Source: an uncultured Ruminococcus sp. (GTDB lineage: Bacteria; Bacillota_A; Clostridia; Oscillospirales; Ruminococcaceae). From it: a DNA stretch of 13,518 nucleotides. The number at the start of each line of letters is the position of its first letter. The stretch's first letter is position 1. The notes below the pieces were generated by a model that had not been told where the DNA came from, ran no database searches, and saw only the letters and a program-made list of their open reading frames with translations. The stretch is from the NCBI GenBank assembly GCA_937880065.1, contig CALFMA010000370.1, positions 1 to 13,518 on the forward strand, given 5' to 3'. Shown one piece after another: positions 1 through 13,518 of the stretch. Made by a program: the position numbers and the translations under genes.

Positions 1-17
1 AAATTATCAATTCTATA

Positions 18-33
18 GCAAACTTTAGTTTGC
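18..33. repeat. Short perfect inverted repeat
   Basis: Arms GCAAACT (18-24) and AGTTTGC (27-33) flank a two-base centre. It lies just downstream, in the minus-strand direction, of the last binding-protein gene and its repeat array. It has no adjoining T-run, so it is not a convincing terminator alone. It could be an mRNA 3'-end stabiliser or a protein site. Confidence 0.5.
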
Positions 34-56
34 GGAACAATATAATAATTCTGTCA

Positions 57-79
57 GGCTTCGGGATAACCCCGAAGCC
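57..79 (-). terminator. GC-rich hairpin, possible operon terminator
   Basis: Arms GGCTTCGGG (57-65) and CCCGAAGCC (71-79) form a perfect 9-bp stem with a 5-base loop, the most GC-rich hairpin near the 3' end of the operon. On the minus strand the bases after the stem are T-rich but not a clean T-run. On the plus strand a short CTTTATT follows. The likely role is to end or protect the 3' end of the binding-protein mRNA. The strand and the terminator function are inferred from position. Confidence 0.4.
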
Positions 80-86
80 GCTTTAT

Positions 87-279
87 TGTCTGCATAGCTG
101 TCGAATAAAATGTCATACAAGCTGTCAAAAAATTAATGTCAAACAAAGGTGTCAAATCAAAATGTCGGATTATGTCATACAAGCTGTCGCAAAATTTATG
201 TCAAACAAAGATGTCACAATAAATTGTCGGAAATTTTGTCAAACTAAGGTGTCAAATCAAAATGTCAAACCAAGCTGTC
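87..279. repeat. TGTC array 1 (16 units, 10-14 bp spacing)
   Basis: TGTC begins at 87, 99, 111, 123, 137, 150, 163, 173, 185, 199, 212, 225, 237, 250, 263 and 276, a mean step of 12.6 bp. The bases between follow a few recurring forms (AAACNAAG, ACAATAAAT, GGAAATT, ATACAAGC). It starts 20 bp beyond the stop codon of the 492-residue binding protein and continues almost to the GC-rich hairpin. It is related to arrays 2 and 3 but has diverged. The unit ACAATAAATTGT, a 5+5 bp dyad, is conserved at 216-227. Units are too short and spacers too regular for CRISPR. Function unknown. Confidence 0.9.
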
Positions 280-298
280 GTATAGAACTAACCTATTA

Positions 299-1777
299 TC
301 AGGATTGTTCGCTTATCCAAATTGAAGCTCTGTTCTGAATTCGCTCAATGCAGGTATCAATATCAATTGCACCTGCTAAGTATTCAAAAACTTCTTCCTC
401 AACAATTTTCTGCAAATTAAAATCAGAAATAATCTCCCAACGCTGAATGGAATTCATATAATTCACAAGCGCATCCACATCTTCACTTGCAGGGGGCTGT
501 TCAAGAAATTCCTCTCCGTTAAAGTCAATTCCCGAACTGCAATATTTTCCGCTTAAAATATCCGCTTTCTGCATTTCAAAAGCCTCGTTATTTATGGGGA
601 AACCCTGTTCGCTGTCGTATTGAACATATTTTTTTCCGTTTTCAACGAATTCATGCCCCTCAATATAATTATCCATAAGGGACTCAACAGTTGCAAATGA
701 ACGGATAAATTTCCAAGCCGCCTCCTGTTTTTCCTTAGATGAATTGGCATTTATGGAATACATTGAACCTAACGAATGAAAATATGCACCATTTCCGTTT
801 AATGTGGGATAACCGACTACCGTTGTATTATTTTCTGCTGAGAAATAATCATCAGCCACAGAAAAACCCGTAATCATACACACATTGGCAAAATTAACTG
901 TATCTGAGGAATGTTCCTCTCTCCGTCCGTTGTTGTATTCAAAGCTATTGCAAAAAGCAAGCATTTTTCTGAATTCCTCACAATCAAAATTAACTGAGCA
1001 ATTCTCATAGTCAACAAAGCTTGATATATTATCTCTGACTATCGCATAATAGACATATTCGCTGCTGCGGTTGCCATTTATAGTGGCATCGGGCGGCATA
1101 TTGTCCCAATAAGACAAAAACTCATCAATTGTCCAGTTCTGCTTTTCGCCAACATAATCACTATTACCGCAAAGGGTTTTAATTCCATATCGGATTGGCA
1201 ATGCGTAAAGTCTGCCGTTTGTTTCGTTTAATTCAAGAATACGTGAATTCAAGGTGTTAGTATTGATTTCTGCATCAGACTCCATAAAGCCGTACAAATC
1301 TACAAAGGCATTTTTGCTTTTCAGAACTTCATATTTTAATGGTTCTTTAAAGCTTGCATTTAAAATAATGTCGATTTCATCGCTGTTGATAATGTCCTGC
1401 ATCAGCTGAAAATCCGCTGTTTTAAAGCCCTCGGGATTATATCCGCCCTCTGTACTGCCGCTGTAATATTCAATGTAATTTTTCAGTTCAACTGTTACTC
1501 CAATATCGCTTTTGTTAAAGGCATCTATGGGCTTTTTGTAGCGGTATTCGTCCTCTTTTGGAAAAACTATAGCCATAGTGAGAACTATATCTTCGGTATC
1601 AGACTCAGAGGTTTCAGTCAGCTTTTCAATTACAGCTGATTGGTTAGTATCTTTTAGGGTATCTTCTTTGTGAATTTCCTCATTCTGAGTTATTGGCTTT
1701 GACTGAAAACAGGATACAGAGGAAAGCATAAAGGTCATAACTGCAATTCCTGTGAGGATTCTATTAAGCTTGTTCAT
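299..1777 (-). CDS. Extracellular solute-binding lipoprotein, short form without propeller domain
   Basis: A 492-residue probable sugar- or oligomer-binding lipoprotein of an ABC importer, anchored outside the membrane. A lipoprotein signal peptide ends at Cys23 (SSVSC). Residues 1-57 are identical to those of the 815-residue neighbour, with only two synonymous base differences. From about residue 64 the protein is a family-1-type binding domain: a first strand, a FNKSD segment, a YIEYY block, and late in the chain VVGYPTLNG followed by EAAWKFIRSF, as in many CUT1 binding proteins. The roughly 320-residue propeller-like domain of the two paralogues is absent. The body is only distantly similar to them, while the end ISEQS is shared again. 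The start has AAGGAGG seven bases upstream. It is the last gene of the operon. The substrate cannot be read from sequence. Confidence 0.9.
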   Translation of the reverse strand: MNKLNRILTGIAVMTFMLSSVSCFQSKPITQNEEIHKEDTLKDTNQSAVIEKLTETSESDTEDIVLTMAIVFPKEDEYRYKKPIDAFNKSDIGVTVELKNYIEYYSGSTEGGYNPEGFKTADFQLMQDIINSDEIDIILNASFKEPLKYEVLKSKNAFVDLYGFMESDAEINTNTLNSRILELNETNGRLYALPIRYGIKTLCGNSDYVGEKQNWTIDEFLSYWDNMPPDATINGNRSSEYVYYAIVRDNISSFVDYENCSVNFDCEEFRKMLAFCNSFEYNNGRREEHSSDTVNFANVCMITGFSVADDYFSAENNTTVVGYPTLNGNGAYFHSLGSMYSINANSSKEKQEAAWKFIRSFATVESLMDNYIEGHEFVENGKKYVQYDSEQGFPINNEAFEMQKADILSGKYCSSGIDFNGEEFLEQPPASEDVDALVNYMNSIQRWEIISDFNLQKIVEEEVFEYLAGAIDIDTCIERIQNRASIWISEQS

Positions 1778-2074
1778 TTTATGTCCTCCTTATTTTTTTC
1801 CATATTTTTGTTGTTAATTCTGTCAAACCAAGATGTCAAAAATTTATGTCAAACAAAGCTGTCACAATAAACTGTCGGAAATTATGTCAAACTAAGCTGT
1901 CACAATAAATTGTCGGAAATTATGTCAAACAAGCTGTCACAATAAATTGTCGCAAAATTATGTCAAATCAAAATGTCAGCCAAGCTGTCGTATAGAACTA
2001 ACCTATTATCAGGATTGTTCGCTTATTAAAATGGAAACTCTGTTCTGAATGATTTCAGCTGTCTGCTCTGCGGT
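1608..2074. repeat. 467-bp near-perfect direct repeat, copy A
   Basis: Matches 4287-4753 at a constant offset of 2679 bp with two mismatches (1631 T/C and 1646 A/T). It covers the first 57 codons of the 492-residue gene, the ribosome site, the whole 231-bp spacer with TGTC array 2, and about the last 22 codons of the upstream 815-residue gene. Similarity drops sharply at both edges, where the gene bodies begin. This indicates recent duplication or gene conversion. Confidence 0.95.
1821..1989. repeat. TGTC array 2 (14 units, 12-13 bp spacing)
   Basis: TGTC begins at 1821, 1834, 1847, 1860, 1873, 1885, 1898, 1911, 1923, 1935, 1948, 1961, 1974 and 1986. Three units make a higher-order repeat of about 38 bp. 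Dyads of the form ACAAT-AA-ATTGT occur at 1902-1913 and 1939-1950. It lies between two binding-protein genes and is probably transcribed as GACA repeats in the leader of the distal gene. There is no GC-rich hairpin and no other gene in this spacer. Confidence 0.9.
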
Positions 2075-4456
2075 CTTTTTACCTGCGAAATACACATTAG
2101 CTTCTTCCGTAATTATATTGTAGATTGCGTTATTGTAATAATAATCATCGGGTTTTGCATTGCTGACATATTCATAAAAAATATCTCTTTCCGCCTGCGT
2201 AAGTGGGGGAATTTTCATTTCTGTGTCATTGATATAGCATACATCGTCATATTCAACCTTTTCACCGTTTGCATCAAGGTAATAAGGCTTTGACATTGCA
2301 TCATCAAAGGTTTTTTCAAAATACGCTTTCAATGCAGGGAAATGATTGCCCTGATAAAGGCTATTTTCTTCTTTAATTAATACACTTTTGATAAATTCCC
2401 AGCAGATATCCTTATTTTCGGAAGTCTGCATAATGGCATAATTTGATGAAGTAATAATTCTTGCAGACGCACCCTCGGGAGTTGGAGTTCCAATCAATGT
2501 AATATCATCGCCCACGTAACCATACTTTATGTGAGCATATTCCCTTGCACTTGCTATATTTGCGTCATAAAGAAGCGCTCTGTCCTCACGGACGGCAGAC
2601 TGCATACTTTTGCTGTAATTAGCAAGTTCTTCGTCTGTAGCGTTATCCCAGTTGATTTCATCGGCCTCACCGGGGTTGGGGTATTCGTTGCAGAATTCAA
2701 GAATTTTTATAAAATCGGGATTATTGAAATCACAGGTAGCATTTTCGTAATCTATAAACGTATTGCTTGATAATACAAGACGTGAGAAAATATCGCTTTT
2801 GGTATTTCCGCCTATAAAAGGCTTCATACCTTCAGGGAGATTATGACAGGTTTCTATAAATTCATCAAGATTCCAGTCTGCCTTGCCGTAATATTTAGTC
2901 TTGCAGGCAAATGTGCTGATATAGAACGAGGGAGAAAGAGTTGAAAGCTGTCCATCAATTTCACAGGCCGAAAGCAAGGAGGGTACAAAATCCTCCCTTG
3001 AATATTCGCTGTCATTGTCAAGATATGTGTATAAATCAACCAATGCACCCTTTTTGGTAAGGTTGGTGAAAACATCGGAATAATCCGACAGACAGATAAT
3101 ATCATAGTTTTTTCCTGCGGCAATATCTCTTTTCAGCTGGTCAACAGGGGTATTCAGTGCCTTTCCCGAGTCATCGTCATACTCAAAATATTCGCTGTAA
3201 TCAGTAAGAGTTATGCGGTAATCGCTGTTTTCCATATTGAAGTCTTTGACTTTATCAGCTATTTCGCCTCCCGAATATTCCACAGCCATATTGATAATTT
3301 TTACATTTTCAATTTCAGCCGCATCACGCTTTGTAAGGCGGTAAATGGCAGCGTTGCCGTCACCCTTGCTGTATTCGGTTATAAAGAAATCACCGTCATT
3401 GACAGGGACAATGGAATTCAGGGAGTTGGCTGATATATCGGAGTCAACCCAGTTTATGAGTTCCACAAGAGAGCCGTCGTCCTTTAAGCCGTAAAGAGAT
3501 GTCTGAGATGAAAGGTATACACGGTAATCGCCCGAACCCTTAATAATATTGTTGAAATACAAATTATCCTCAAAGGTGATTTTATCGGGGGAAATTTCCA
3601 TTGTATCTGCATTGAGAGTTCTTAATTCGCTGTTTCCGTTTTCATTTACCATAAAAACAAAATTGTTATCCCTGTCCGTGCCGTAGTAATTCAAATAATC
3701 ATTTGTGTGAAAATCAATAGGCTCAGAGATGTTTCCCTCACCGTCAACAGTTACAAAAACCGTTTCATCGCTCATTATTACGGATATACAGATTTTATCA
3801 TCACCAAGGGCGAAACATTCGCTTATACCGAACATATCATCTGCTCTTGCGTTAACACTTTCCTCAAAATCTTCAATTTCATTTTCCGCAATAACCTTGC
3901 CTGATTCGTCAAAAGTCAGAATTTTATATGTATTTACTGCGGCTTCTGCCATTTCCTCATAGTCGAAGCTTTCATAGTCAAAGTTCGGGTCATTAAAATC
4001 GGGAAGTTCATAATCACCGTAATCCGTAACTGTAAGAATTGCATATATTGTGCCGTTGTTTGCAGCAACATAGTTTTCGTTAAACTCAATATTGGCTGTT
4101 TTGTTAATTCCGTTGTCAAATTCCTTGTATGCGGATAAATCGGATTCAACCAGCAGCGTACCCCATTCCCAGTCTGCTCCGCTTCCAATAACGCCCGAAA
4201 ACAGGTATTTCCCTGTATTTCCCACATTCTGAATATTTGTTATATCCGTAAGCGGCAAATCAGCATCAAGCTTAACCGCCTTATATGAGGTTTCAGTCAG
4301 CTTTTCAATCACAGCTGATTGGTTTGTATCTTTTAGGGTATCTTCTTTGTGAATTTCCTCATTCTGAGTTATTGGCTTTGACTGAAAACAGGATACAGAG
4401 GAAAGCATAAAGGTCATAACTGCAATTCCTGTGAGGATTCTATTAAGCTTGTTCAT
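2009..4456 (-). CDS. Large solute-binding lipoprotein with N-terminal propeller-like domain
   Basis: An 815-residue surface lipoprotein, about twice the usual length for a CUT1 binding protein. The signal peptide ends at Cys23. Residues 58 to about 382 contain repeated beta-strand and turn units (for example ILTFDESGKV, FVTVDGEGNISEP, YLSSQTSLYGLKDDGS) consistent with a beta-propeller; this is inferred from pattern. An acidic, aromatic stretch (DFNDPNFDYESFDYEEM) is conserved in the 809-residue paralogue. From about residue 385 comes the binding domain: IINMAVEYSGG, KVKDFN, YSEYFEY, NLDEFIETC, and near the end ICWEFIKSV. The chain ends in ILISEQS, as in the paralogue. AAGGAGG lies seven bases before the ATG. 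It probably captures substrate for the two permeases upstream, or works with the adaptor; the ligand is unknown. Confidence 0.9.
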   Translation of the reverse strand: MNKLNRILTGIAVMTFMLSSVSCFQSKPITQNEEIHKEDTLKDTNQSAVIEKLTETSYKAVKLDADLPLTDITNIQNVGNTGKYLFSGVIGSGADWEWGTLLVESDLSAYKEFDNGINKTANIEFNENYVAANNGTIYAILTVTDYGDYELPDFNDPNFDYESFDYEEMAEAAVNTYKILTFDESGKVIAENEIEDFEESVNARADDMFGISECFALGDDKICISVIMSDETVFVTVDGEGNISEPIDFHTNDYLNYYGTDRDNNFVFMVNENGNSELRTLNADTMEISPDKITFEDNLYFNNIIKGSGDYRVYLSSQTSLYGLKDDGSLVELINWVDSDISANSLNSIVPVNDGDFFITEYSKGDGNAAIYRLTKRDAAEIENVKIINMAVEYSGGEIADKVKDFNMENSDYRITLTDYSEYFEYDDDSGKALNTPVDQLKRDIAAGKNYDIICLSDYSDVFTNLTKKGALVDLYTYLDNDSEYSREDFVPSLLSACEIDGQLSTLSPSFYISTFACKTKYYGKADWNLDEFIETCHNLPEGMKPFIGGNTKSDIFSRLVLSSNTFIDYENATCDFNNPDFIKILEFCNEYPNPGEADEINWDNATDEELANYSKSMQSAVREDRALLYDANIASAREYAHIKYGYVGDDITLIGTPTPEGASARIITSSNYAIMQTSENKDICWEFIKSVLIKEENSLYQGNHFPALKAYFEKTFDDAMSKPYYLDANGEKVEYDDVCYINDTEMKIPPLTQAERDIFYEYVSNAKPDDYYYNNAIYNIITEEANVYFAGKKTAEQTAEIIQNRVSILISEQS

Positions 4457-4753
4457 TTTATGTCCTCCTTATTTTTTTCCATATTTTTGTTGTTAATTCT
4501 GTCAAACCAAGATGTCAAAAATTTATGTCAAACAAAGCTGTCACAATAAACTGTCGGAAATTATGTCAAACTAAGCTGTCACAATAAATTGTCGGAAATT
4601 ATGTCAAACAAGCTGTCACAATAAATTGTCGCAAAATTATGTCAAATCAAAATGTCAGCCAAGCTGTCGTATAGAACTAACCTATTATCAGGATTGTTCG
4701 CTTATTAAAATGGAAACTCTGTTCTGAATGATTTCAGCTGTCTGCTCTGCGGT
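4287..4753. repeat. 467-bp near-perfect direct repeat, copy B
   Basis: Partner of 1608-2074. It contains the leader codons of the 815-residue protein, the 231-bp spacer and the last codons of the 809-residue protein. Recombination between the copies would remove or amplify a 2679-bp unit carrying one binding-protein gene. Confidence 0.95.
4500..4668. repeat. TGTC array 3 (14 units), identical to array 2
   Basis: Every TGTC position equals that of array 2 plus 2679, and the whole spacer is identical base for base. It lies between the 809- and 815-residue binding-protein genes. Since the flanking gene bodies differ in about a third of their residues, identity of a noncoding spacer points to recent homogenisation or strong constraint. 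Confidence 0.9.
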
Positions 4754-7117
4754 TTTTTCACCTGCGAAATAGATGTTGCACTCATCTAAAATAATGTTGA
4801 AAACATCTTCATTATAATAGAACTTGCTTGCCTTTATGTTGCCCACATAGTTTCTGATTAAATCACATTCCTCCTGTGTAAGAGGGTCAAGCTTGATTTC
4901 ATTGACACCGTCATAGTACATATCGTCATATTCAACCTTTTTGCCGTTTTCGTCAAGGTAGTAAGGTCTTTCCATAGCCTTATCGAAACCTTTGTCAAAT
5001 TCAGATTTTAATGCAGGGAAATCATAAAGTTCCTCGGAACCCTGATATTCCTCATCAAACATCTCCTTGATAAACTCCCAGCAAGCGTCCTTATTTTTAG
5101 AAGTTTCCATAATTGCATAAGAACCTGATGTGAAAATCTTTGCTCCTGCTCCGTCAGCGGAGGGATTTCCTACAAAAGTGAATTCCTCACCGAAGTTGCC
5201 GTGTCTTATACGAGCATAATCTCTTGGATTGCTGAGGTAAATATCATAGAGCAAGGCTCTGTCGTCACGAACAGCAGATTCTATTTTTCCCCAGTATTCG
5301 TTCATTTCTTCATCTGTTGCATTTTCCCAGTCGATTTCATCGCCCTCACCTGGGTTGGGGAACTGATTACAGAATTCAAGAAGTTCTATAAACTTAGGAT
5401 TGTTGAAATCGCAGGTTGCATTATCAAAATCAATAAACGCATCGCTCACCAATGCAAGGTTCATAAGAATTCCTTCCTTGGTGTTATCGGAAGAAAAGGG
5501 CTTCATTCCCTCGGGAAGATTGTTACAAGTTTCAAGGAATTCATCAATTGTCCAGTTTTCCTTGTCGAAAAATTTAGACTTACAGCCAAATGTTGTGATA
5601 TAGAATGAAGGGGCAAGAGATGTAAGCTTGCCATCCCTTTCGCCTACAGAAAGCATTGTGGGAACTATATCATCTCGTGAAAGTTCGCTGTCGCTGTCAA
5701 GGTATGTGTATAAGTCAACTAACGCACCCTTTTTGGAGAGGTTTTCAAAAATACCCGAGGAATCTGACATACAGATAATATCAAATGTCTTTCCTGCGGC
5801 TATATCCTGTTTAAGCTGCTTGTCGGGAGAGTTTATGTTTCTTTCTGCTTCCTCGTCCCATTCAAAGTATTCGCTGTAATCCGCAATCTTTATACGGTAA
5901 TCGCTGTTTGTCTTGTTGAAATCCTTTACTCTTTCGATAATAGACGGGTCTGCGTATTCCATAACCATATTGATAAACTGAACATTTTCAATTTCAGATA
6001 TATCACGCTTTGTAAGGCGGTAAACAGAGGCTGTGCCTGTTGACCAGTTCTGCTCTGTTACAAGGAAATCGCCGTTATCAACAGGAATAAGCTCCTGAAT
6101 GTAGTCGCCTGTCATATCGGAGTCAACCCAGTTGATGATTTCCACTACGGAGCCGTCATCTTTCATACCGTAAAGAGATGTTGAAGATGAAAGGTATACA
6201 CGGTACTCACCTGAGCCTTTAATAACTGCGTTGAAGTAAAGAGCTGCGTCAACAGTAATTGAATCGGGGCTGACAGCTAAAGTTTCAGCATCAAGAGTCT
6301 TTAAAATGTTATCGCTGCCCTCGTTTGTCATATATACGAAATTGTTATCTCTGTCTGTGCCGGAGGGGTGGAAGTAGTCATCTGTGCCGAAATCAATAGG
6401 CTCAGAAATACTTCCGTCGCTGTCAACAGTAATATAATCCGAATTCATTCCGCCGCTTAATGATAAACAAATCTTGCTGCTGCCGAGGGCGAAACAATCA
6501 TGTAAATAAACTATACCGCTTGAATCGTCTGCATCAGAAAATTTTTCAATGCCTGATATTTCACTTTCAGTAAGGATTTCGCCTGATTCGCTGATAGTAA
6601 AAATTTTATATGTGTATGTTGCGGCTTCTTCCATCGCCTCATAGTCGAAGTTTTCATAGTCAAAGTCGGGGTCGTTATAATCGGGGAGTTCAAAATCGCC
6701 GTAATCTGTAATCATAGCAACTGCATAAATTTTGCCGTCGTTTGCCGCAACGTAATATGCGTTGAAGTTAACGCTGTCGGTGGTTTTGATTCCGAGGTCA
6801 ATTTCCTTAAATACAGAGAAATCGGCATCGGCAATATATCCCTTTACATTATACATACCTTTTTCATCTTCAACATATCCCGAAGCAAGAAGCTTTCCTG
6901 TGGTTCCGATAGGAATAATGCTGTTAACTTCCACAAAGGGCAGTTCAGCGTCTATTTCCACTGCCTTATATGATGTTTCAGCCATTTGCTGAATTGCGGA
7001 TGATTGGTCTACGCTGTTATCGGCTTTGAGGTCAATTTCCTTTTTACTGCAAGATGCGAAAGAGAGCATAGATGCCATAGCCATAATTCCTGCAAGTGTT
7101 CTTGTTAATTTGTTCAT
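4688..7117 (-). CDS. Large solute-binding lipoprotein with N-terminal propeller-like domain, first of three paralogues
   Basis: An 809-residue surface lipoprotein. The signal peptide ends at Cys23 (LSFASC). Residues 50 to about 375 form strand-rich repeats resembling a propeller (TISESGEIL, ITVDSDGSISEP, YLSSSTSLYGMKDDGS, ending YRLTKRD). An acidic segment lies at about 146-166. The binding domain runs from about 378: FINMVMEYAD, RVKDFNKTN, YSEYFEW, WTIDEFLETC, and FVGNPSADG followed by ACWEFIKEM. By eye its body is roughly 60-65% identical to the 815-residue neighbour. Its leader differs from the other two, so it probably represents the ancestral arrangement. The start overlaps the preceding stop as TAATG, with AAGGAG seven bases upstream, indicating translational coupling to the MacB-like gene. 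Substrate unknown. Confidence 0.9.
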   Translation of the reverse strand: MNKLTRTLAGIMAMASMLSFASCSKKEIDLKADNSVDQSSAIQQMAETSYKAVEIDAELPFVEVNSIIPIGTTGKLLASGYVEDEKGMYNVKGYIADADFSVFKEIDLGIKTTDSVNFNAYYVAANDGKIYAVAMITDYGDFELPDYNDPDFDYENFDYEAMEEAATYTYKIFTISESGEILTESEISGIEKFSDADDSSGIVYLHDCFALGSSKICLSLSGGMNSDYITVDSDGSISEPIDFGTDDYFHPSGTDRDNNFVYMTNEGSDNILKTLDAETLAVSPDSITVDAALYFNAVIKGSGEYRVYLSSSTSLYGMKDDGSVVEIINWVDSDMTGDYIQELIPVDNGDFLVTEQNWSTGTASVYRLTKRDISEIENVQFINMVMEYADPSIIERVKDFNKTNSDYRIKIADYSEYFEWDEEAERNINSPDKQLKQDIAAGKTFDIICMSDSSGIFENLSKKGALVDLYTYLDSDSELSRDDIVPTMLSVGERDGKLTSLAPSFYITTFGCKSKFFDKENWTIDEFLETCNNLPEGMKPFSSDNTKEGILMNLALVSDAFIDFDNATCDFNNPKFIELLEFCNQFPNPGEGDEIDWENATDEEMNEYWGKIESAVRDDRALLYDIYLSNPRDYARIRHGNFGEEFTFVGNPSADGAGAKIFTSGSYAIMETSKNKDACWEFIKEMFDEEYQGSEELYDFPALKSEFDKGFDKAMERPYYLDENGKKVEYDDMYYDGVNEIKLDPLTQEECDLIRNYVGNIKASKFYYNEDVFNIILDECNIYFAGEKTAEQTAEIIQNRVSILISEQS

Positions 7118-8244
7118 TACTTTTTCTCCTTGTAATTCATATTATTTTTGGTTTCTTTTTTCTGTTCCTTTAATATACTCCGTCTGTAAAAGAATTTTGT
7201 TACACTATTTGAAAAATTTTCTGTAATTTTTTTTCGCAGTCTGCCTCCTGCCCTCCAGCCGAGGACGATAAGGAGCAATGATGTCAGAACAGGTATGATA
7301 TATGTCAGCTTGCGGAAATGGTAAATTCCCGTAAGTCTGAATTCTGTTATACGTGAAGCATTTTCCCAGTACGGATAAATAAGCGGTTTATCTGAAATCG
7401 CATAATCCGAAAGGTTTTTATACTTCTTTGCAAGCTTTGAGGAATCAAATCGCTCTGTATTATTTACAATGGCAATTGATGTGTTGTAGCTTCCTCCAAG
7501 CTGGTCGTTAAGAGCGTTGTATGCGAAATTCTCAACAGGGTCGGGAACTACACATTCATAGCAGGTCAATGTACTTGTCGGGCTGTCGTAACCCTCGGAA
7601 TATCCGCCGTTGAGAAGCTTGTAACCCTCGTAAGAGATGTACACCCTCGGCATATCCCCTGCGGTTTTTTTCTCCTGCTTTGTCTGCGGAGTGTCAATAA
7701 CTCCCGATATGTAGAACTTTATGCCGTTGAGGTAAAGGGACATTCCTGCAATATCCTCTGAGCCGTAAAGTTCCCACGCAAGCATTCTGTCAATAACTGC
7801 ACCGTCCTGCATAATATCGCTTTCGGTGTAAAATGCACCGTCAAGGAGCTTGAAGTCACGGAAAAGGAAGAAATCCCCCCCTGTAGCCGTTACCATAGCT
7901 TCGGAACGTCCTGTTCTGTCGCAGGTAACTGTCATTTGTCCCGCATTTCGGCTGTAGGCTTCGGGGATAAGCGTCTGCCCCTCCTCTGCTATAACTCCCA
8001 CATTTTTCAGCTTATCCGTAATGGATTGCTTTATATAGGGAAGTGACTGAACGCTGTAGGCTGCATCATCTGTAAAGAAACAGCTTAGCTGTGTACAGCC
8101 CTTTTCGGAATCCCACCGCTGTGCGGCATAGTTGTAGCTTTGGGATTTGGCAAGGGAACTGCCAACCGCCGTGAGAGTAACTCCCGTACCGATCGACAAC
8201 ACGTTTGCGGCGGCAAGGGCGGCAATTAATAGCTTTTTATTCAT
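7117..8244 (-). CDS. Small MacB/FtsX-like ABC permease-type membrane protein
   Basis: A 375-residue membrane protein. An N-terminal membrane segment (about 5-30) is followed by a large extracellular domain with the MacB periplasmic-core signature at about 135-183: a GAFYTESD segment, then GAVID, an ELYGSEDIAGMSLYLNG stretch and FYISGVID. A second membrane segment follows at about 311-330, then a basic tail (GGRLRKKI and a lysine-rich end). Full MacB/FtsX permeases have three C-terminal membrane segments after this domain, so this is a minimal or degenerate form. It starts 12 bases after the adaptor stop and its TAA overlaps the next ATG. In MacAB-type systems the permease works with an HlyD-type adaptor, and the adjacent adaptor gene fits that pairing. 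No ATPase is encoded nearby, so export activity is uncertain. Confidence 0.8.
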   Translation of the reverse strand: MNKKLLIAALAAANVLSIGTGVTLTAVGSSLAKSQSYNYAAQRWDSEKGCTQLSCFFTDDAAYSVQSLPYIKQSITDKLKNVGVIAEEGQTLIPEAYSRNAGQMTVTCDRTGRSEAMVTATGGDFFLFRDFKLLDGAFYTESDIMQDGAVIDRMLAWELYGSEDIAGMSLYLNGIKFYISGVIDTPQTKQEKKTAGDMPRVYISYEGYKLLNGGYSEGYDSPTSTLTCYECVVPDPVENFAYNALNDQLGGSYNTSIAIVNNTERFDSSKLAKKYKNLSDYAISDKPLIYPYWENASRITEFRLTGIYHFRKLTYIIPVLTSLLLIVLGWRAGGRLRKKITENFSNSVTKFFYRRSILKEQKKETKNNMNYKEKK

Positions 8245-8256
8245 CAGCCCACCGCC

Positions 8257-10029
8257 TTATTCATCTTTCATACGCACCTGATCTCCCGGTTTAACAGGGA
8301 GGCTTGAAGCTACAATAACATAATCGCCATAGGTAACGCTGCCGCTTATCGCACTTGAAACTTCATCGGAACAGAGCACTTCTACGGGAACACGCTCTGC
8401 AAAATAGCGGTTGCCCAGAGGTGAACTCTTTGATTTTACTATAAGTACGAATGAGCCTTTATTGTCGGTATAAACAGCACTCTTTGGCACGATAGTGTCA
8501 TAGTTGCCGCTGCCGAGAGGAATTGAAAGGTCAAGGTTTGTATTGGAATCCACATCACCTGTTACAGAGAAAACGAGTATGCGGTTTTTGGAATTTGCAG
8601 TTGTATCGTTTTTGATATTAGTGAGAACAGCTGTAATATTGCCGTTCCAGTTGTTGAGAACCTCAGCTTCAACGCCCTTTCTGATTTTTCTTGTCTTTTC
8701 GCCGTCAACGGTAATTTCAACGGTATAACCCTCAGATGAAAGGTCAATTGTGATAATTTCCATATCGGGAACTGTTTCATCGCCGACTCTTGCATTGATT
8801 GCACTTACAATTCCGCTGTGTTTTGAGATAATTTCTGTTGTTTCGTTTTCCTTTTTAAGCTTTTCAACCTTTTCCTTAGCCTTTTCGATATTCTTTTTCA
8901 TAGAAGTAAGGTTGAGATTTTCAAGCTTATCCTGTGCTGCGTTGTCCTTCTGTGACTTTTCGAGCTGTGCTATAACTTCCTCTAAAGCACGCTGTTTAGC
9001 CTTTACATCAGCTTCAAGCATATCGAGAGTAACACCCTCGCCGCCCATAGATGACTCATATTCGCTTACAAGATTTGTATACTCCTCAATTTTTGATTCT
9101 GCATCTGAAAGCTGTGCGGAATAATCTGTTCTAAGCTGTGATTTCTTTGTGTTGTAAGCCTCGGCAGCAGTATTTCTTGCTGTTTCAGCTGTTTCCATAG
9201 CTGTCTTTGCAGCAGCGATTTCTTCCTGTGAAACCATAGTTGGAGCAGTTGTTTCAACATCTTCTTCCTCAGATGTTGAAATCATAGCTGTGTATACTGT
9301 CAGCTTTTCCTGATAAAGCTTTTCTGCATTTTTGTATTCCTCGGAAAGTTTAAGGATTTCCCCTGTATATTCAACAGGAGCAGTTGTATAGTTGTCCATA
9401 TCAATTGCCGCAATCATAGCTGTAAGTTTTTCCTGAAGCTTTGTATAGCTTGAAAGCTGTGCCTTATTTTCCTTATAGGCATTCTTTGCAGCTTCAACAT
9501 TGCCTTGATTTGCATTAAAGTTATCCCTTGCAGTAATAGCCTCAGCTAAATCCTCACGGGCGTGCTTGATAGCCTGATTTTCTGATGTGTAATCAGCGTC
9601 GGGAGTAAGAAGTGCCTTGCTGTATTCAAGTTCAAGGGCTTCAAGATTTTCAATAGCAGCAGTAAGGGCTTCGCTTTCGCCTGTGCCTACAACCATAAGC
9701 ACATCGCCCTCCTCTACCTCTTTGCCGACTTTTACATTAATAGTGTCGATTACTTTATTTCCGTCAACAGTAACGCCGTATGTCTGATTTGAAAGCACCA
9801 TACCGCTGCCACGAAGTCTTTCTGTAAGCTTTCCGCTTGTAGTACGCTCAGTTGTAATCTGCGGCAGAGATTTGTTCATAATTGTATTTGAGCAGAAAAG
9901 GAGGACAAGAAGTGCCGCAAGGAAAATAATAAGTATAGTTTTGATTACCTCACGTTTGCGGCGGGGGTCATACTCCTCTTTATCGCCTTTAATATCCTTA
10001 ACATCTTTGATTTCTTTTAATTCAGCCAT
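8257..10029 (-). CDS. HlyD-family membrane fusion/adaptor protein
   Basis: A periplasmic-adaptor-type protein of 590 residues from the chosen start. A charged cytoplasmic N-terminus and one membrane helix (about 29-47) are followed by half of a biotinyl-lipoyl-like domain (about 80-115, VKVGKEVEEGDVL), a very long Ala/Glu/Lys-rich coiled coil (about 118-395), the second lipoyl half (ISKHSGIVSAINARVGD) and beta-barrel parts with IVPKSAVYTDNKGSFVLIV. This order is the standard HlyD/MacA layout. I chose the ATG at 10029 because AAAGG lies ten bases upstream. An ATG at 10047 would add six residues but its only ribosome-like site is about 14 bases away. In Firmicutes such proteins usually pair with MacB-like transporters. 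Its place inside an importer operon is unusual. Confidence 0.88.
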   Translation of the reverse strand: MAELKEIKDVKDIKGDKEEYDPRRKREVIKTILIIFLAALLVLLFCSNTIMNKSLPQITTERTTSGKLTERLRGSGMVLSNQTYGVTVDGNKVIDTINVKVGKEVEEGDVLMVVGTGESEALTAAIENLEALELEYSKALLTPDADYTSENQAIKHAREDLAEAITARDNFNANQGNVEAAKNAYKENKAQLSSYTKLQEKLTAMIAAIDMDNYTTAPVEYTGEILKLSEEYKNAEKLYQEKLTVYTAMISTSEEEDVETTAPTMVSQEEIAAAKTAMETAETARNTAAEAYNTKKSQLRTDYSAQLSDAESKIEEYTNLVSEYESSMGGEGVTLDMLEADVKAKQRALEEVIAQLEKSQKDNAAQDKLENLNLTSMKKNIEKAKEKVEKLKKENETTEIISKHSGIVSAINARVGDETVPDMEIITIDLSSEGYTVEITVDGEKTRKIRKGVEAEVLNNWNGNITAVLTNIKNDTTANSKNRILVFSVTGDVDSNTNLDLSIPLGSGNYDTIVPKSAVYTDNKGSFVLIVKSKSSPLGNRYFAERVPVEVLCSDEVSSAISGSVTYGDYVIVASSLPVKPGDQVRMKDE

Positions 10030-10056
10030 TGTATTTCTACCTTTCATAATATTGTA

Positions 10057-10947
10057 TTAACCCTTGATACCGCCTGAATAGGTGATACCCTCAAGGAGAT
10101 AGTCCTCGCCATAGAGGAACATAAGTATTGTAGGAACCATATACACCGTACCTACCGCAAAGGCAAGTCCGATATCTCCTGTGTTTATCTGCGACAGGAA
10201 CACCGATAAGGGGTGCATATCAGCGTCTTTCATAAGAATAAGTGGCTGTTCCACCATATTCCAATAGTCGATGAATACAAGCATTGCAATTGAAACAATC
10301 GCACCTTTGCAAAGGGGAACGTGAATTTTTGTAAGTATCTGCAATTCACTTGCACCGTCAAGCTTAGCGGCTTCCACATAGGAAACGGGAATTCGCCTCA
10401 TAACCTTTGACAGCAGGAATACGCTGAAAGGTGAGAAGATACCCGGCAGAATAATTGCCCAGCGTGTATTGAGAAGATTGAATTTCTCAGCTACAAGAAA
10501 ATTCGGTACAAGAGTTACCTGATAGGGCATTATCATAAGTATGATATAGGTGAAAAATATAATGCCCTTGAATTTGTTGGGGTATCGTGAAAAGCCGTAG
10601 GAAGTGAGGATTGCCAGAAACATCTGAAACAGGGTAATTGGAACGGTAAGAAGTACGGAATTCCAGAATTTCAGCAGATATTCGGGATTTTTCAGCAATA
10701 CATTCTTATACTGGTCAATTGTTACCTTGTCGGGAATAAATTTCAGATTTACTTTATCAGAAATATAAACCTTTTTGTCCTCGGTCATATTGTCAAGCAT
10801 TGCACCGTAGTTGGCGGAAATTTCCGTTGATGTCATAAAGGAATTGGCAATTGTAAGCACCGTGGGCATAATGAACATTGCCGCCGCAACAAATGCGAAA
10901 ACGGTAACAATTGCGTTGACGATTTTTCTGTTTCTCCGCATATTCAT
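10057..10947 (-). CDS. CUT1-type sugar ABC transporter permease, MalG-like
   Basis: A 296-residue integral membrane subunit of a binding-protein-dependent importer. The first membrane helix is at about 10-35, followed by an extracellular loop (about 40-90) and further helices at about 95-118, 127-150, 162-182, 215-235 and 262-280. The EAA loop that docks the ATPase is clear at 192-205 (EAAKLDGASELQIL). The C-terminus YSGGIKG matches the usual end of MalG-type permeases. The ATG overlaps the TAA of the MalF-like gene (TAATG), with AAAGGA upstream, so the two permeases are translationally coupled and probably form a heterodimer. Two further ATG codons follow closely; the coupled one is preferred. 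Confidence 0.94.
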   Translation of the reverse strand: MNMRRNRKIVNAIVTVFAFVAAAMFIMPTVLTIANSFMTSTEISANYGAMLDNMTEDKKVYISDKVNLKFIPDKVTIDQYKNVLLKNPEYLLKFWNSVLLTVPITLFQMFLAILTSYGFSRYPNKFKGIIFFTYIILMIMPYQVTLVPNFLVAEKFNLLNTRWAIILPGIFSPFSVFLLSKVMRRIPVSYVEAAKLDGASELQILTKIHVPLCKGAIVSIAMLVFIDYWNMVEQPLILMKDADMHPLSVFLSQINTGDIGLAFAVGTVYMVPTILMFLYGEDYLLEGITYSGGIKG

Positions 10948-11837
10948 TATTCCACATCCTTTCCGAAATGATTTTCAATGGCAAGGAGAATGGCAATAAT
11001 CACAATCATAATGAGAGAGAAAAGTACCGCCGCCGATGACAATTTCTGATAGTCCAGACTGTTGAAAGTGTTATTCATAAAGTGCTGGAGCATATACATT
11101 TTATCGTAGGGGTAATCGCCTGTAAGGAGATAAACCTCACGGAAAATCTTAAATGAGTTGATAAGGGAAAGGATAAGCACAAAGAGTATTGTGGGTGAAA
11201 GGTATCTCAATTTAATATGTACAAACTGATACCAGCCGCTTGCACCCTCCAGTTTTGCAACCTCGATAATGTCACGGGGAATTGAGGCAAGTGCGGACAT
11301 AAAGAGTATCATATTATATCCCATATTCTTCCACAGGAACATTACTATAATAATAGTCTGACCGTGTGCGGATTTCATCCAGTCCACAGAGCCGCCGCCA
11401 AACATTTCAATTATCTGATTTAGTGTACCGTTGGTGTGGAATAAAACCTGCCACACAAGAACGACTGATGCCGTAGGTACCATAAGGGGACTCAGGAAAA
11501 AAGTTCGCACAACGCTTTTTCCGGGGATATCCCTTTCAAGGAGTACCGCAAACCACAGTGATAAAATAACTGCAAGGGGTACGGATATAAGGGAAAAAGT
11601 AGCGGTATTTACTGCGGCTTTTTTGAATGCCACCGTTTCAATGAGCCGCTTGTAGTTGTCCAATCCCACAAATTCCTGCATAATGGGATTATTTATAAGA
11701 GAATAATAGACTACTATTCCAAATGGTATAAGAAAAAATATCAAAACGCCGATAAGACTTGGCATAACGCATATATTACTGAATATCCGTTCGCCTCTCC
11801 TGCCGCATTGGCTTTTCTTTTTCTTCAAGTGCAACAT
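10947..11837 (-). CDS. CUT1-type sugar ABC transporter permease, MalF/UgpA-like
   Basis: A 296-residue importer permease with a lysine-rich N-terminus and about six membrane helices (about 25-45, 78-100, 115-133, 160-182, 215-230, 268-286). The EAA loop reads EVAKLEGASGWYQF at 192-205, and FREVYLLTGDYP near the end is typical of the MalF/UgpA group. It is the first gene of the operon. The start is ambiguous: the ATG at 11837 directly abuts AAAGGAG with no spacer, whereas the in-frame TTG at 11828 (codon 4) has a nine-base gap and may be the true start. An in-frame TAG lies just upstream, so no longer form exists. It pairs with the MalG-like subunit; the ATPase must be encoded elsewhere. Confidence 0.93.
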   Translation of the reverse strand: MLHLKKKKSQCGRRGERIFSNICVMPSLIGVLIFFLIPFGIVVYYSLINNPIMQEFVGLDNYKRLIETVAFKKAAVNTATFSLISVPLAVILSLWFAVLLERDIPGKSVVRTFFLSPLMVPTASVVLVWQVLFHTNGTLNQIIEMFGGGSVDWMKSAHGQTIIIVMFLWKNMGYNMILFMSALASIPRDIIEVAKLEGASGWYQFVHIKLRYLSPTILFVLILSLINSFKIFREVYLLTGDYPYDKMYMLQHFMNNTFNSLDYQKLSSAAVLFSLIMIVIIAILLAIENHFGKDVE

Positions 11838-12105
11838 CTCCTTTAGTGTATGGGTTTTCTATTTTACCCCTCTATATATAAGTGTTTTTAAAAGGCGAAA
11901 AAAACAAAGTGTTGAAATATTTTTTTATTTTAACGAATTGCTCGGTTATTTCGCAAATTAAAAATTGAAATGATAAGAAAATTTTTATGTGTAGTTTTCA
12001 GCTGTATACGGTGATTTCAGTCACACTTCAAATTTTGATTTATGTGAATTTCAAGGCAAATAGGTGATAAATAATAAAATTATTTTACAACTGTTTTTCT
12101 TTCAC

Positions 12106-12129
12106 ATTTGTAAACCTAAGTTTACAAAT
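12106..12129. promoter_or_regulatory. Perfect 10+10 bp palindrome, candidate operator
   Basis: Arms ATTTGTAAAC (12106-12115) and GTTTACAAAT (12120-12129) are exact reverse complements around CTAA. It lies about 270 bp before the first permease gene and about 65 bp downstream of the candidate promoter start. Such a long AT-rich perfect dyad fits a repressor or dimeric regulator site rather than a terminator. It does not fit the Rex spacing, and I cannot assign the regulator. Confidence 0.6.
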
Positions 12130-12170
12130 CGGTGATTTTTCATTCACAAAGTGTACAAGGTGTACCAAAC

Positions 12171-12200
12171 ATCATAATACAGTTGCTACAACATTATGAT
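12171..12200. promoter_or_regulatory. Inverted repeat overlapping the candidate operon promoter
   Basis: Arms ATCATAAT (12171-12178) and ATTATGAT (12193-12200) are perfect complements 14 bp apart; within the gap GTTG and CAAC add a shorter inner dyad. The right arm covers most of the candidate -10 and the left arm lies just downstream of the expected start, a position suited to repression. Confidence 0.5.
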
Positions 12201-12224
12201 ACCACATTGTTTAATATTTGTCAA
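12196..12224 (-). promoter_or_regulatory. Candidate sigma-A promoter of the transporter operon
   Basis: On the minus strand TTGACA (12219-12224) is followed after exactly 17 bp by TATCAT (12196-12201), one base off the consensus -10. Transcription would start near 12189, giving a leader of about 350 nt. A second, weaker candidate lies upstream: perfect TATAAT at 12276-12281 with CAGACA at 12300-12305. No better match was seen closer to the gene. Confidence 0.5.
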
Positions 12225-12283
12225 TAGTTTTTTTAAAAAAGATTACACAAAATTCACTTGATTTTACTACGATAAATTATACA

Positions 12284-12294
12284 ACTCAAATGTT
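12284..12294 (+). repeat. Direct repeat ACTCAAATGTT, copy 1
   Basis: The same 11 bases recur at 12513-12523. Both copies are followed within about 60 bp by TGATATA and then AATATTTT, so they look like two diverged copies of a longer segment flanking the TTAGCC element. Confidence 0.5.
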
Positions 12295-12341
12295 AAAAGT
12301 GTCTGATATAATTCTTAATATTTTCTTATGATTTAACAGTT

Positions 12342-12376
12342 GTTAGCCGTTAGCCATTAGCCTTTAGCCGTTAGCT
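12342..12376 (+). repeat. Five tandem heptamers of the form NTTAGCC
   Basis: Consecutive units GTTAGCC, GTTAGCC, ATTAGCC, TTTAGCC and GTTAGCT without gaps. The last two units are part of a 15-bp arm that recurs inverted at 12498-12512. GC-richer than its surroundings. Confidence 0.8.
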
Positions 12377-12512
12377 GTTTGGCAATGCGTAATTATGTGG
12401 GCGACTGATATAATTTGTATGGTCACGGCGTGCCGTGTCCGCAATTTACGTAATATAGTTGTATTTGTGTAGCGACGGATATTAGCCGCCAGCTAAAAGC
12501 TAACGGCTAAAG
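12362..12512. repeat. Inverted-repeat element with 15-bp arms
   Basis: CTTTAGCCGTTAGCT (12362-12376) and AGCTAACGGCTAAAG (12498-12512) are perfect complements separated by 121 bp. Inside is a compact hairpin at 12421-12440 with arms CACGGC and GCCGTG plus an outer GG/CC pair. No reading frame of note is inside. It resembles a small non-autonomous repeat or miniature element, flanked by ACTCAAATGTT direct repeats; mobility is not shown. Confidence 0.5.
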
Positions 12513-12523
12513 ACTCAAATGTT
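12513..12523 (+). repeat. Direct repeat ACTCAAATGTT, copy 2
   Basis: Partner of 12284-12294, beginning directly after the inverted arm of the TTAGCC element. Confidence 0.5.
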
Positions 12524-12600
12524 CAAAAACTAAAAAATGAGCAAAACTGTGATATAGTAAAGTAATATTTTGTGTATAGTGCTAAAATTTTAAAAACCAC

Positions 12601-12629
12601 TTGACATTTACTGCTCGTTGTGATATAAT
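12601..12629 (+). promoter_or_regulatory. Consensus promoter of the tRNA cluster
   Basis: TTGACA (12601-12606) and TATAAT (12624-12629), both perfect, are separated by 17 bp. TGA just before the -10 makes an extended -10. Start expected near 12636, about 16 bp before the first tRNA. Confidence 0.92.
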
Positions 12630-12651
12630 AATTATCGTTGAAACACAGAAT

Positions 12652-12725
<74 letters not shown>

Positions 12726-12731
12726 TTCAAA

Positions 12732-12747
12732 AGCAGCTTTGGCTGCT
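12732..12747 (+). other. Small hairpin between tRNA-Gly and tRNA-Arg
   Basis: AGCAGC and GCTGCT pair around a TTTG loop, followed by GATTTTAT. The T-run is weak, so it is more likely a processing or partial termination signal within the tRNA transcript than a full terminator. Confidence 0.4.
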
Positions 12748-12759
12748 GATTTTATCTAT

Positions 12760-12833
12760 GCGCCTTTAACTCAGCTGGATAGAGTAACTGCCTTCTAAGC
12801 AGTAAGCCGCTGGTTCGAATCCAGCAAGGCGCG
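12760..12833 (+). tRNA. tRNA-Arg (anticodon TCT)
   Basis: Acceptor arms GCGCCTT and AAGGCGC pair fully. The anticodon stem ACTGC/GCAGT encloses CTTCTAA with anticodon TCT, and the T arm is CTGGTTCGAATCCAG. No encoded CCA. Confidence 0.95.
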
Positions 12834-12842
12834 CTATAATAT

Positions 12843-12917
12843 GGTGGGTGTAGCTTAGCTGGTTAAAGCGTCGGATTGTGGTCCCGAAGATCGTGGGTTC
12901 GAATCCCATCTCCCACC
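12843..12917 (+). tRNA. tRNA-His (anticodon GTG)
   Basis: The extra G-1 (12843) faces discriminator C (12917), the hallmark of tRNA-His. The loop TTGTGGT carries GTG. The D stem GCTT/AAGC and T arm are normal. Two stem mismatches are visible: T6-T67 in the acceptor and A31-C39 at the base of the anticodon stem. No encoded CCA. Confidence 0.93.
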
Positions 12918-12928
12918 CTCATAAAACA

Positions 12929-12959
12929 GGCATTTCCGAGAAATCGGGAATGCTTTTTT
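12929..12959 (+). terminator. Rho-independent terminator of the tRNA cluster
   Basis: GCATTTCCGA (12930-12939) pairs with TCGGGAATGC (12944-12953), with one T-G wobble, around a GAAA tetraloop and is followed by six T. It begins about a dozen bases after tRNA-His. Confidence 0.92.
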
Positions 12960-12963
12960 GTTA

Positions 12964-12984
12964 TTTTCCTACAATTTTCCTACA
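12964..12984 (+). repeat. Two tandem copies of TTTTCCTACA, 11-bp period
   Basis: TTTTCCTACA at 12964-12973 and again at 12975-12984, just after the tRNA terminator. Short repeated motifs near a tRNA 3' end can be integrase arm sites, but no integrase gene is in the window. Confidence 0.6.
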
Positions 12985-12998
12985 CACTATTTCAGACC

Positions 12999-13027
12999 TT
13001 GACTAATTAAACGCAAATTGATATAAG
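12999..13027 (+). promoter_or_regulatory. Promoter of the Fic-family gene
   Basis: TTGACT (12999-13004), 17 bp, then TATAAG (13022-13027) preceded by TGA as an extended -10. The start would be near 13034, leaving a short leader that holds AAAGGAGGG. Confidence 0.7.
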
Positions 13028-13057
13028 GGCATAATAAAATAAAAGGAGGGATTGCCA

Positions 13058-13518
13058 TTGTCGGACAAAAGAGAATTATTGTCTGTTTTGCTTTCTGAAA
13101 AGTGCAGAAAACTCAAAGGCAGTATATATAACAGAATGCAGGTGGATTTTGCATACAACTCAAATCACATCGAGGGCAGCAAACTTACCCACGACCAGAC
13201 CAGATATATTTTTGAGACTAATACGATAGGCGTAGAAAAGGAAGTGCTGAACGTAGATGATGTAATTGAAACAGCGAATCACTTCCGTTGCATTGATATG
13301 ATTATTGATAACGCAAAGGCAACATTGACAGAGAAGTTTGTCAAAGAACTTCATCTGATTCTGAAGAATGGTACTAGTGATTCCAGAAAAGAGTGGTTTG
13401 CTGTAGGCGATTACAAAAAAGTACCGAATGAAGTCGGAGGCATGGATACAGCACTTCCTGAAGAAGTTGCCGATAAAATGAAAGCGTTACTGACAGAGTA
13501 CAACAGAAAAGAAGAAAA
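13058..13518 (+). CDS. Fic-family protein, N-terminal part (runs off window)
   Basis: 153 codons visible and open to the window edge. The start is a TTG at 13058 with AAAGGAGG about seven bases upstream. No ATG in this frame is near a ribosome site, which makes the gene easy to miss. The N-terminus is helical, followed by FAYNSNHIEGSKLT at residues 31-44. This matches the Fic N-terminal region, and SNHIEG (35-40) fits the [S/T]xxxE[G/N] inhibitory motif that blocks ATP binding in autoinhibited Fic enzymes. Later EWFAVGDYKKVPNEVGG resembles the segment before the Fic core. The catalytic HPFxxGNGR motif should lie beyond the window. Fic proteins usually AMPylate target proteins; this one may be a toxin or regulatory enzyme. 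It has its own promoter after the tRNAs. Confidence 0.88.
   Translation, partial: MSDKRELLSVLLSEKCRKLKGSIYNRMQVDFAYNSNHIEGSKLTHDQTRYIFETNTIGVEKEVLNVDDVIETANHFRCIDMIIDNAKATLTEKFVKELHLILKNGTSDSRKEWFAVGDYKKVPNEVGGMDTALPEEVADKMKALLTEYNRKEE

Follow-up and report, generated by a model that had tools for sequence, protein, structure and literature searches.

We analyzed a 13,518-nucleotide stretch of DNA from an uncultured Ruminococcus sp. (Ruminococcaceae; GenBank assembly GCA_937880065.1, contig CALFMA010000370.1, positions 1 to 13,518 of the forward strand; hereafter the window), in which arrays of a four-nucleotide word repeated every 12–13 nt lie directly behind the stop codons of three solute-binding protein (SBP) lipoprotein genes. 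Because these genes are encoded by the minus strand, their mRNA carries the word as GACA, not as TGTC, the form on the strand shown. The arrays, their position behind stop codons, the constancy of word and pitch beside drifting linkers, the lack of a fold, and their recurrence at unrelated genes were all observed directly. We tentatively interpret them, with a little less than even confidence, as multi-site platforms on single-stranded RNA for a sequence-specific protein whose nature, mode of binding and effect we infer from sequence. Word, pitch and place are the unusual features; multi-site RNA platforms as such are already known.

An earlier note on this DNA had described three arrays, each with 14–16 copies of TGTC at a mean step of about 12.6 bp and each following a binding-protein stop, and our counts agree. 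When the window was simulated 300 times with a first-order Markov model, the maximum number of TGTC words per 190 nt was usually 4 and reached 8 once. All three arrays begin 19 nt past a stop codon. However, arrays B and C are identical and lie inside a 428-bp perfect repeat, so the window holds two independent arrays rather than three. Both are situated between SBP genes and thus also precede the next gene, and array A follows the last SBP gene. The grouping into triplets of roughly 38 bp is seen in B and C (Tandem Repeats Finder period of 38 bp, 3.4 copies, 92% matches); A scored best at a period of 62 bp, or five units. The mixture of 12- and 13-nt steps marks the arrays as non-coding, as previously argued. 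In an unbiased test, all 256 tetramers were scored for runs of at least five copies at 12–13 nt in 40 loci collected solely through SBP homology (395,615 bases, excluding L021/L022 and L038, L039, L041–L044, second copies; L and G numbers denote loci and genomes, respectively). GACA/TGTC was the sole tetramer with such runs in more than one locus (10 runs, 6 loci); the next best, ACAT, GAGC and GTCA with their complements, reached one locus each.

Step lengths were compiled from 12 arrays of the SBP operon family, omitting C as a copy of B and including one array in a 5′ leader (L037). Steps of 12 or 13 nt accounted for 107 of 134, and a further 12 measured 24–26 nt, each of which by eye holds a one-mismatch copy (AACA, TACA, GACG, GACC, GACT or GGCA) near the expected GACA position. 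Outside the word, no unit position exceeded about 1 bit of information. Across 26 runs from Ruminococcus and its family (B and C both counted though identical; five of 23 loci, L023, L128, L129, L210 and L232, gave no strict run of five), median linker identity was 0.47 and 12- and 13-nt steps were mixed in 21. The corresponding values for 43 GACA runs from viral contigs were 0.94 and 7, although those runs had been found with a five-copy pattern that itself fixed two steps at 13. With that caveat, the arrays look different from the usual 13-mer minisatellite: linkers drift while word and pitch stay. The arrays folded no better than dinucleotide shuffles (z from −1.27 to 1.94; energy above the shuffle mean in 10 of 12 segments), and Rfam searches at gathering thresholds (7 plus 14 sources) returned tRNA and tmRNA only, with no match to an array.

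SBP homologs were found at E ≤ 1e-60 in 112 of 125 genomes of the genus. Among 30 loci with flanking sequence, the seven closest (51–95% identity; G001, G088, G093, G070, G082, G079, and G092) carry a cluster of at least five GACA words behind the SBP stop; the other 23, at 51% identity and below, have no GACA cluster there. The nearest relatives with the operon thus carry arrays, and most of the genus does without. A strict four-copy pattern gave 57 overlapping matches in the 125 genomes vs. 10 for the reversed control, and the arrays are tied to gene ends rather than scattered without gene association. The first arrays of L021 and L023, like B and C, are located within a single operon, between genes that run in the same direction. 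Of 26 distinct array-less sequences, nine contain a single GACATC or GACAGC ahead of an anti-Shine-Dalgarno-like element described below; the remainder have GCTATC, GAAATC or none of these at that place.

The supposition that the arrays always sit 3′ of this lipoprotein family did not hold. Long regular arrays also occur behind a serpin-dockerin gene in G090 and G120 (14 and 11 words; proteins 69% identical) and a sortase gene in G106 (13 words), and arrays of 15 and 17 words lie 276 and 196 nt past the stop of a dockerin-like gene in G090 and G120 (proteins 70% identical). Weaker candidates follow a leucine-rich repeat (LRR)-dockerin gene in G082 (4 words), genes for two related membrane proteins in G059 and G092 (2–3 words in register), another membrane protein gene in G136 (4 words), and a locus in G093 and G079 that we take, on general grounds and not from a Pfam match, to be membrane/SPFH-like (3–4 words at a time). 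A long G081 protein is followed by GACA-rich sequence in which only two of 15 steps are 12–13 nt, and the L134 array was detected at E = 0.0145, a value that by itself is no better than chance. In genus g15, two species (G139, G388) keep an array downstream of a zinc-ribbon gene. Orthologs at the seven SBP loci, the serpin-dockerin and dockerin-like genes and the g15 zinc-ribbon gene retain their arrays while the units differ. Either a lipoprotein signal (SBPs, by eye) or a hydrophobic 19-residue window of at least 1.48 was present in all genus groups except the cut G081 protein, which suggests that the arrays sit mainly behind genes for exported or membrane proteins; this is a trend and not a rule, as the g15 zinc-ribbon product is not exported.

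In a sample of the family, the four-copy pattern occurred in 8 of 396 genomes (31 matches vs. 11 for the reversed control). In a class-level sample it occurred in 9 of 393 genomes, G001 included (16 matches for the reversed control); apart from G001 and G887, these were seven single matches. G887, from outside the family, has a 13-mer GACA array (L201, G887:C76; 4 matches) 3′ of what is presumably smpB, with the tmRNA gene next. In G258, a member of another genus, the arrays form part of a dispersed repeat that is intergenic and carries a C-rich leader (L165, L170, L173, L176, L178, L181, L184, and L186). At L271 (G079:C51; sequence shared with L212/L217), triplets of GACA words alternate with ~90-nt stretches that are nearly identical and contain TGATATAG, a sequence also found past the arrays in L128, L130, and L200. 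A phage origin was considered and rejected: the 31 stretches in the viral_contigs set with a five-copy pattern were mostly homogeneous repeats. The genomes of the relatives are mostly metagenome-assembled.

Only co-directional neighbors are informative about strand, since an array between convergent genes is always sense to one of them. GACA lay in gene sense in all four genus groups with such neighbors, namely SBP, serpin-dockerin, and the weaker L128 and L270. This count excluded G258 (dispersed repeat, reported separately below), G469 (unclear gene assignment, masked bases), G329 (at the edge of a contig), G192 and G334 (with only four copies), G002 (within an open reading frame, ORF), the L037 leader array, and arrays adjoining a convergent gene. 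Orientation weakly backs an RNA-level role, weakly because most non-SBP arrays sit between convergent genes. Among those, a terminator-like hairpin lies past the array on the GACA strand in L129–L134, L200, and L204, which fits, without proving, the 3′ untranslated region (UTR) of the GACA-sense gene; in L130 and L200 a further hairpin seems by eye to lie ahead of the array as well.

The SBP array at the end of the operon is very probably transcribed, judging from its place between the stop codon and a conserved anti-Shine-Dalgarno (anti-SD)-like element followed by an intrinsic terminator; this arrangement is common to the end-of-operon arrays of the SBP clade, while B and C are inside the operon and the window stops short of the element. 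Of 49 rows, among them intercistronic arrays and some genomes entered twice, 41 have CCTCCTT no more than 350 nt past the SBP stop, whereas 0.038 occurrences would be expected in a stretch of that length. The motif lies mostly 27–55 nt past the stop in array-less species, and in array species the array and a hairpin come in between. The 15-mer TACTCCACCTCCTTA was found exactly once in each of 18 of 125 genomes, always within ~300 nt 3′ of the last SBP gene, and the terminator stem past it shows compensatory change in 10 of 10 pairs (20 aligned sequences of 33 segments; 0–7 of the 20 broken or gapped per pair). The single-copy anti-SD-like sequence ATACTCCACCTCCTT, directly ahead of the terminator in the SBP 3′-UTR (e.g., L021:9789-9804 and L024:12706-12721), together with that terminator is a candidate 3′-UTR-derived regulatory RNA. 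Pairing of the element with the ribosome-binding site of its own SBP gene was rejected, the mean longest match over 25 loci being 7.32 for own and 7.36 for swapped sites.

Taken together, the four-nucleotide word, tight pitch, free linkers, lack of fold and position past stop codons suggest recognition of single-stranded RNA by a protein in contact with its neighbors. The arrays would be unstructured 3′-UTR or intercistronic RNA presenting GACA every 12–13 nt, onto which such a protein would load as an oligomer or cooperatively; contacts between adjacent proteins along the strand could account for both the tight pitch and the free linkers. Loading past the stop codon may then govern how stable the mRNA of a single cistron is, how its 3′ end is processed or where it is located, mainly for cistrons encoding exported and membrane proteins. 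Since SBP arrays also lie between genes, an adjacent terminator is dispensable, and such a per-cistron role fits better than one in termination. KH-type proteins such as KhpA/KhpB are candidate readers on general grounds. A platform in the spacer mRNA, one of the possibilities raised in the earlier note, is thus our best reading. An extended version, in which GACA at a 12–13-nt pitch is a 3′-UTR code of Ruminococcus and its family, amplified from a single ancestral GACATC-like site and used by an oligomeric protein to mark mRNAs of exported and membrane proteins (e.g., for membrane-near translation, stability, or 3′ processing), appears unlikely.

Several observations weigh against an RNA platform. 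Presence is patchy, with the strict four-copy pattern in 11 of 125 genus genomes, and five of the eight non-SBP genus groups have just 2–6 words or lack a regular step. Searches based on GACA, with sequence models and patterns, supplied the arrays outside the SBP operon, so the constancy of the word there stems partly from hit selection. Of the three G258 loci with co-directional neighbors, two are sense and one (L176) antisense, and the dockerin-like, sortase, LRR-dockerin, L131/L134, L133, and L271 arrays lie beside or between convergent genes. One array (L037:2062-2233) sits in the 5′ leader of an operon; it has diverged linkers, directly follows TATATATAGAG, a stretch common to the window leader, and is itself followed by a hairpin. 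The candidate readers Rho and RRM domains gave no match in any of 30 genomes. Finally, in a comparison of the window with L021, changed columns numbered 14 of 118 in GACA and 45 of 296 in linkers, although registration inside repeats is unreliable.

That near-equal rate of change fits a neutral or selfish minisatellite, in which slippage and unequal exchange amplify a GACA unit that nothing reads and gene ends merely tolerate the repeats. The patchy distribution, the indels of whole units that distinguish arrays of close relatives, the higher-order 38-bp repeats in the window, the lone GACATC or GACAGC in nine of 26 array-less relatives, and the dispersed repeat of G258 all point the same way. 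Slippage, however, homogenizes the entire unit, as in the viral repeats, whereas here linkers have diverged and 12s and 13s are mixed, and the same word recurs at unrelated genes in several genera. On balance we regard this origin as a serious but still unlikely competitor. Binding of a protein to TGTC in duplex DNA, as an iteron or as a nucleoid, termination or recombination platform, seems less likely again. The arrays do resemble iterons as regular short direct repeats, their DNA is included in the 428-bp duplication flanking an extra SBP gene, and the strand is undeterminable for the many non-SBP arrays between convergent genes; yet a step of 12.6 bp is out of phase with the helix, GACA is sense in all four informative groups, and the arrays follow stop codons. 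The seven window genes tested are SBP, MacB-PCD, HlyD, and permease genes with no replication initiator among them. Of the two binder types proposed in the earlier note, the RNA-binding one is favored, and its iteron-like recombination substrate finds little support beyond the duplicated block. Least probable of the readings we weighed is that the arrays form the 5′ spacer or chaperone-binding part of a 3′-UTR-derived small RNA (sRNA) ending in the anti-SD-like element and terminator. The enrichment of CCTCCTT and the strictly SBP-linked single-copy 15-mer favor it, as does the precedent of RsaC, an sRNA of an ABC-transporter operon whose 5′ repeats may play such a part (PMC9438474). Against it, most genus loci examined have the element without an array, CCTCC lies within 400 nt of an array in only one of 12 non-SBP genus loci, and the element pairs no better with its own Shine-Dalgarno sites than with swapped ones.

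Known classes of repeat were also compared. In a CRISPR array, repeats of at least about 23 nt are nearly identical and separated by unique spacers; here only a 4-nt word is constant. Intrinsic terminators and repetitive extragenic palindromic elements were rejected because hairpins lie beside, not within, arrays that fold no better than shuffles; on all three classes we concur with the earlier note. PHO boxes are TGTCA direct repeats at 11 bp, which differs from the 12–13-nt steps and the variable base beside the word observed here. An array of TTGACA promoters was dismissed, as the second base ahead of GACA is mixed and promoter-like sites (TT ahead of GACA, −10 element at 16–18 nt) in positions 1–4700 numbered 18 vs. 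16.2 expected by chance. Type III toxin-antitoxin RNAs combine a repeat array and terminator with a toxin gene in line; the ORF next to the array was convergent in L021, L023, L024, L025, and L037, and in line in L026. Rho utilization (rut) sites resemble the arrays in being unstructured RNA past a stop codon and in recurring every 8–13 nt, but they use YC rather than AC and are C-rich and G-poor; the Rho RNA-binding domain PF07497 had no match in 30 of 30 genomes (control rings in 9 of 14), and C/G ratios of the arrays were near 1 (0.81–1.28). CsrB/RsmZ-type RNAs likewise offer many short identical words to one RNA-binding protein, but the words are GGA and CsrB is a separate sponge RNA, whereas the arrays present GACA, unstructured, at a 12–13-nt pitch behind genes; no such Rfam match was obtained in 21 sources. 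TRAP wraps (G/U)AG words at fixed pitch around an oligomeric protein and thus shares short word and fixed pitch, differing in the word itself, in pitch (~5 vs. ~12.6 nt here), in location (leaders vs. mostly 3′ ends) and in the up to 17 or more copies found here. The closest case we found in the open PMC literature is RsaC of S. aureus, a 3′-UTR sRNA of the ABC-importer operon mntABC whose 5′ region contains repeats that change its length (PMC9438474). The arrays share with it an ABC-importer operon 3′-UTR with upstream repeats; they also occur behind unrelated genes and are known from sequence alone.

The features of the window are listed in Table 1. The operon, on the minus strand, ends with the three SBP genes and also contains two permease genes, an HlyD-like gene, and a MacB-PCD-like gene. 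The closest genome compared shares 23% of sampled 31-mers with the window. The nearest relative, L021/L022 (genome G001), has two SBP genes at this place, with one array between and one behind them, and lacks SBP gene 2 here. This extra gene, flanked by the 428-bp perfect direct repeats, has a head resembling gene 1 and a tail resembling gene 3, and looks as if it had been inserted via recombination through array and gene ends. Hairpins like that past array A occur in L022, L023–L026, and L040, and the GACA step across the hairpin is 36–37 nt in L024–L026 and L037.

Table 1. Arrays, genes and repeats in the window, with positions on the forward strand.
Feature	Position	Strand	Remarks
Array A, 16 GACA words (TGTC on +), behind last SBP gene	87..279	-	steps 10-14, mean 12.6
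Array B, 14 GACA words, between SBP genes 2 and 1	1821..1989	-	steps 12 or 13
Array C, 14 GACA words, between SBP genes 3 and 2	4500..4668	-	steps 12 or 13; identical to B
Hairpin GGCTTCGGG..CCCGAAGCC directly past array A	57..79	-	no T-run on operon strand; terminator-like on + only
GACA immediately beyond hairpin	52..55	-	step across hairpin 35 nt
SBP lipoprotein gene 1	299..1777	-	492 aa, SBP_bac_8
SBP lipoprotein gene 2	2009..4456	-	815 aa, SBP_bac_8
SBP lipoprotein gene 3	4688..7117	-	809 aa, SBP_bac_1
428-bp block: gene tail, array, head of next gene	1647..2074	.	identical to 4326..4753
428-bp block, second copy	4326..4753	.	identical to 1647..2074

Upstream of the operon are three tRNA genes (12652-12917); a tRNA trio of equal scores stands beside the operon in L023, L024, L025, and L037, and two of the three are present on the cut contig L026. 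Short TTAGCC/GGCTAA repeats flank the operon (window 12342-12379; L021:9921-10037) and are likely a separate dispersed repeat.

To our knowledge, bacteria offer hardly any examples of multi-site 3′-UTR elements that a ruler-like protein reads. According to a review, the major RNA-binding protein related to sRNAs is still to be found in most Gram-positive species (PMC9438474). A short exact word at a fixed pitch would provide a ready bait for such a protein in Ruminococcus, a fiber-degrading gut genus, and the single-copy anti-SD-like element behind the SBP gene, also conserved, may offer another regulatory RNA to test at this location.

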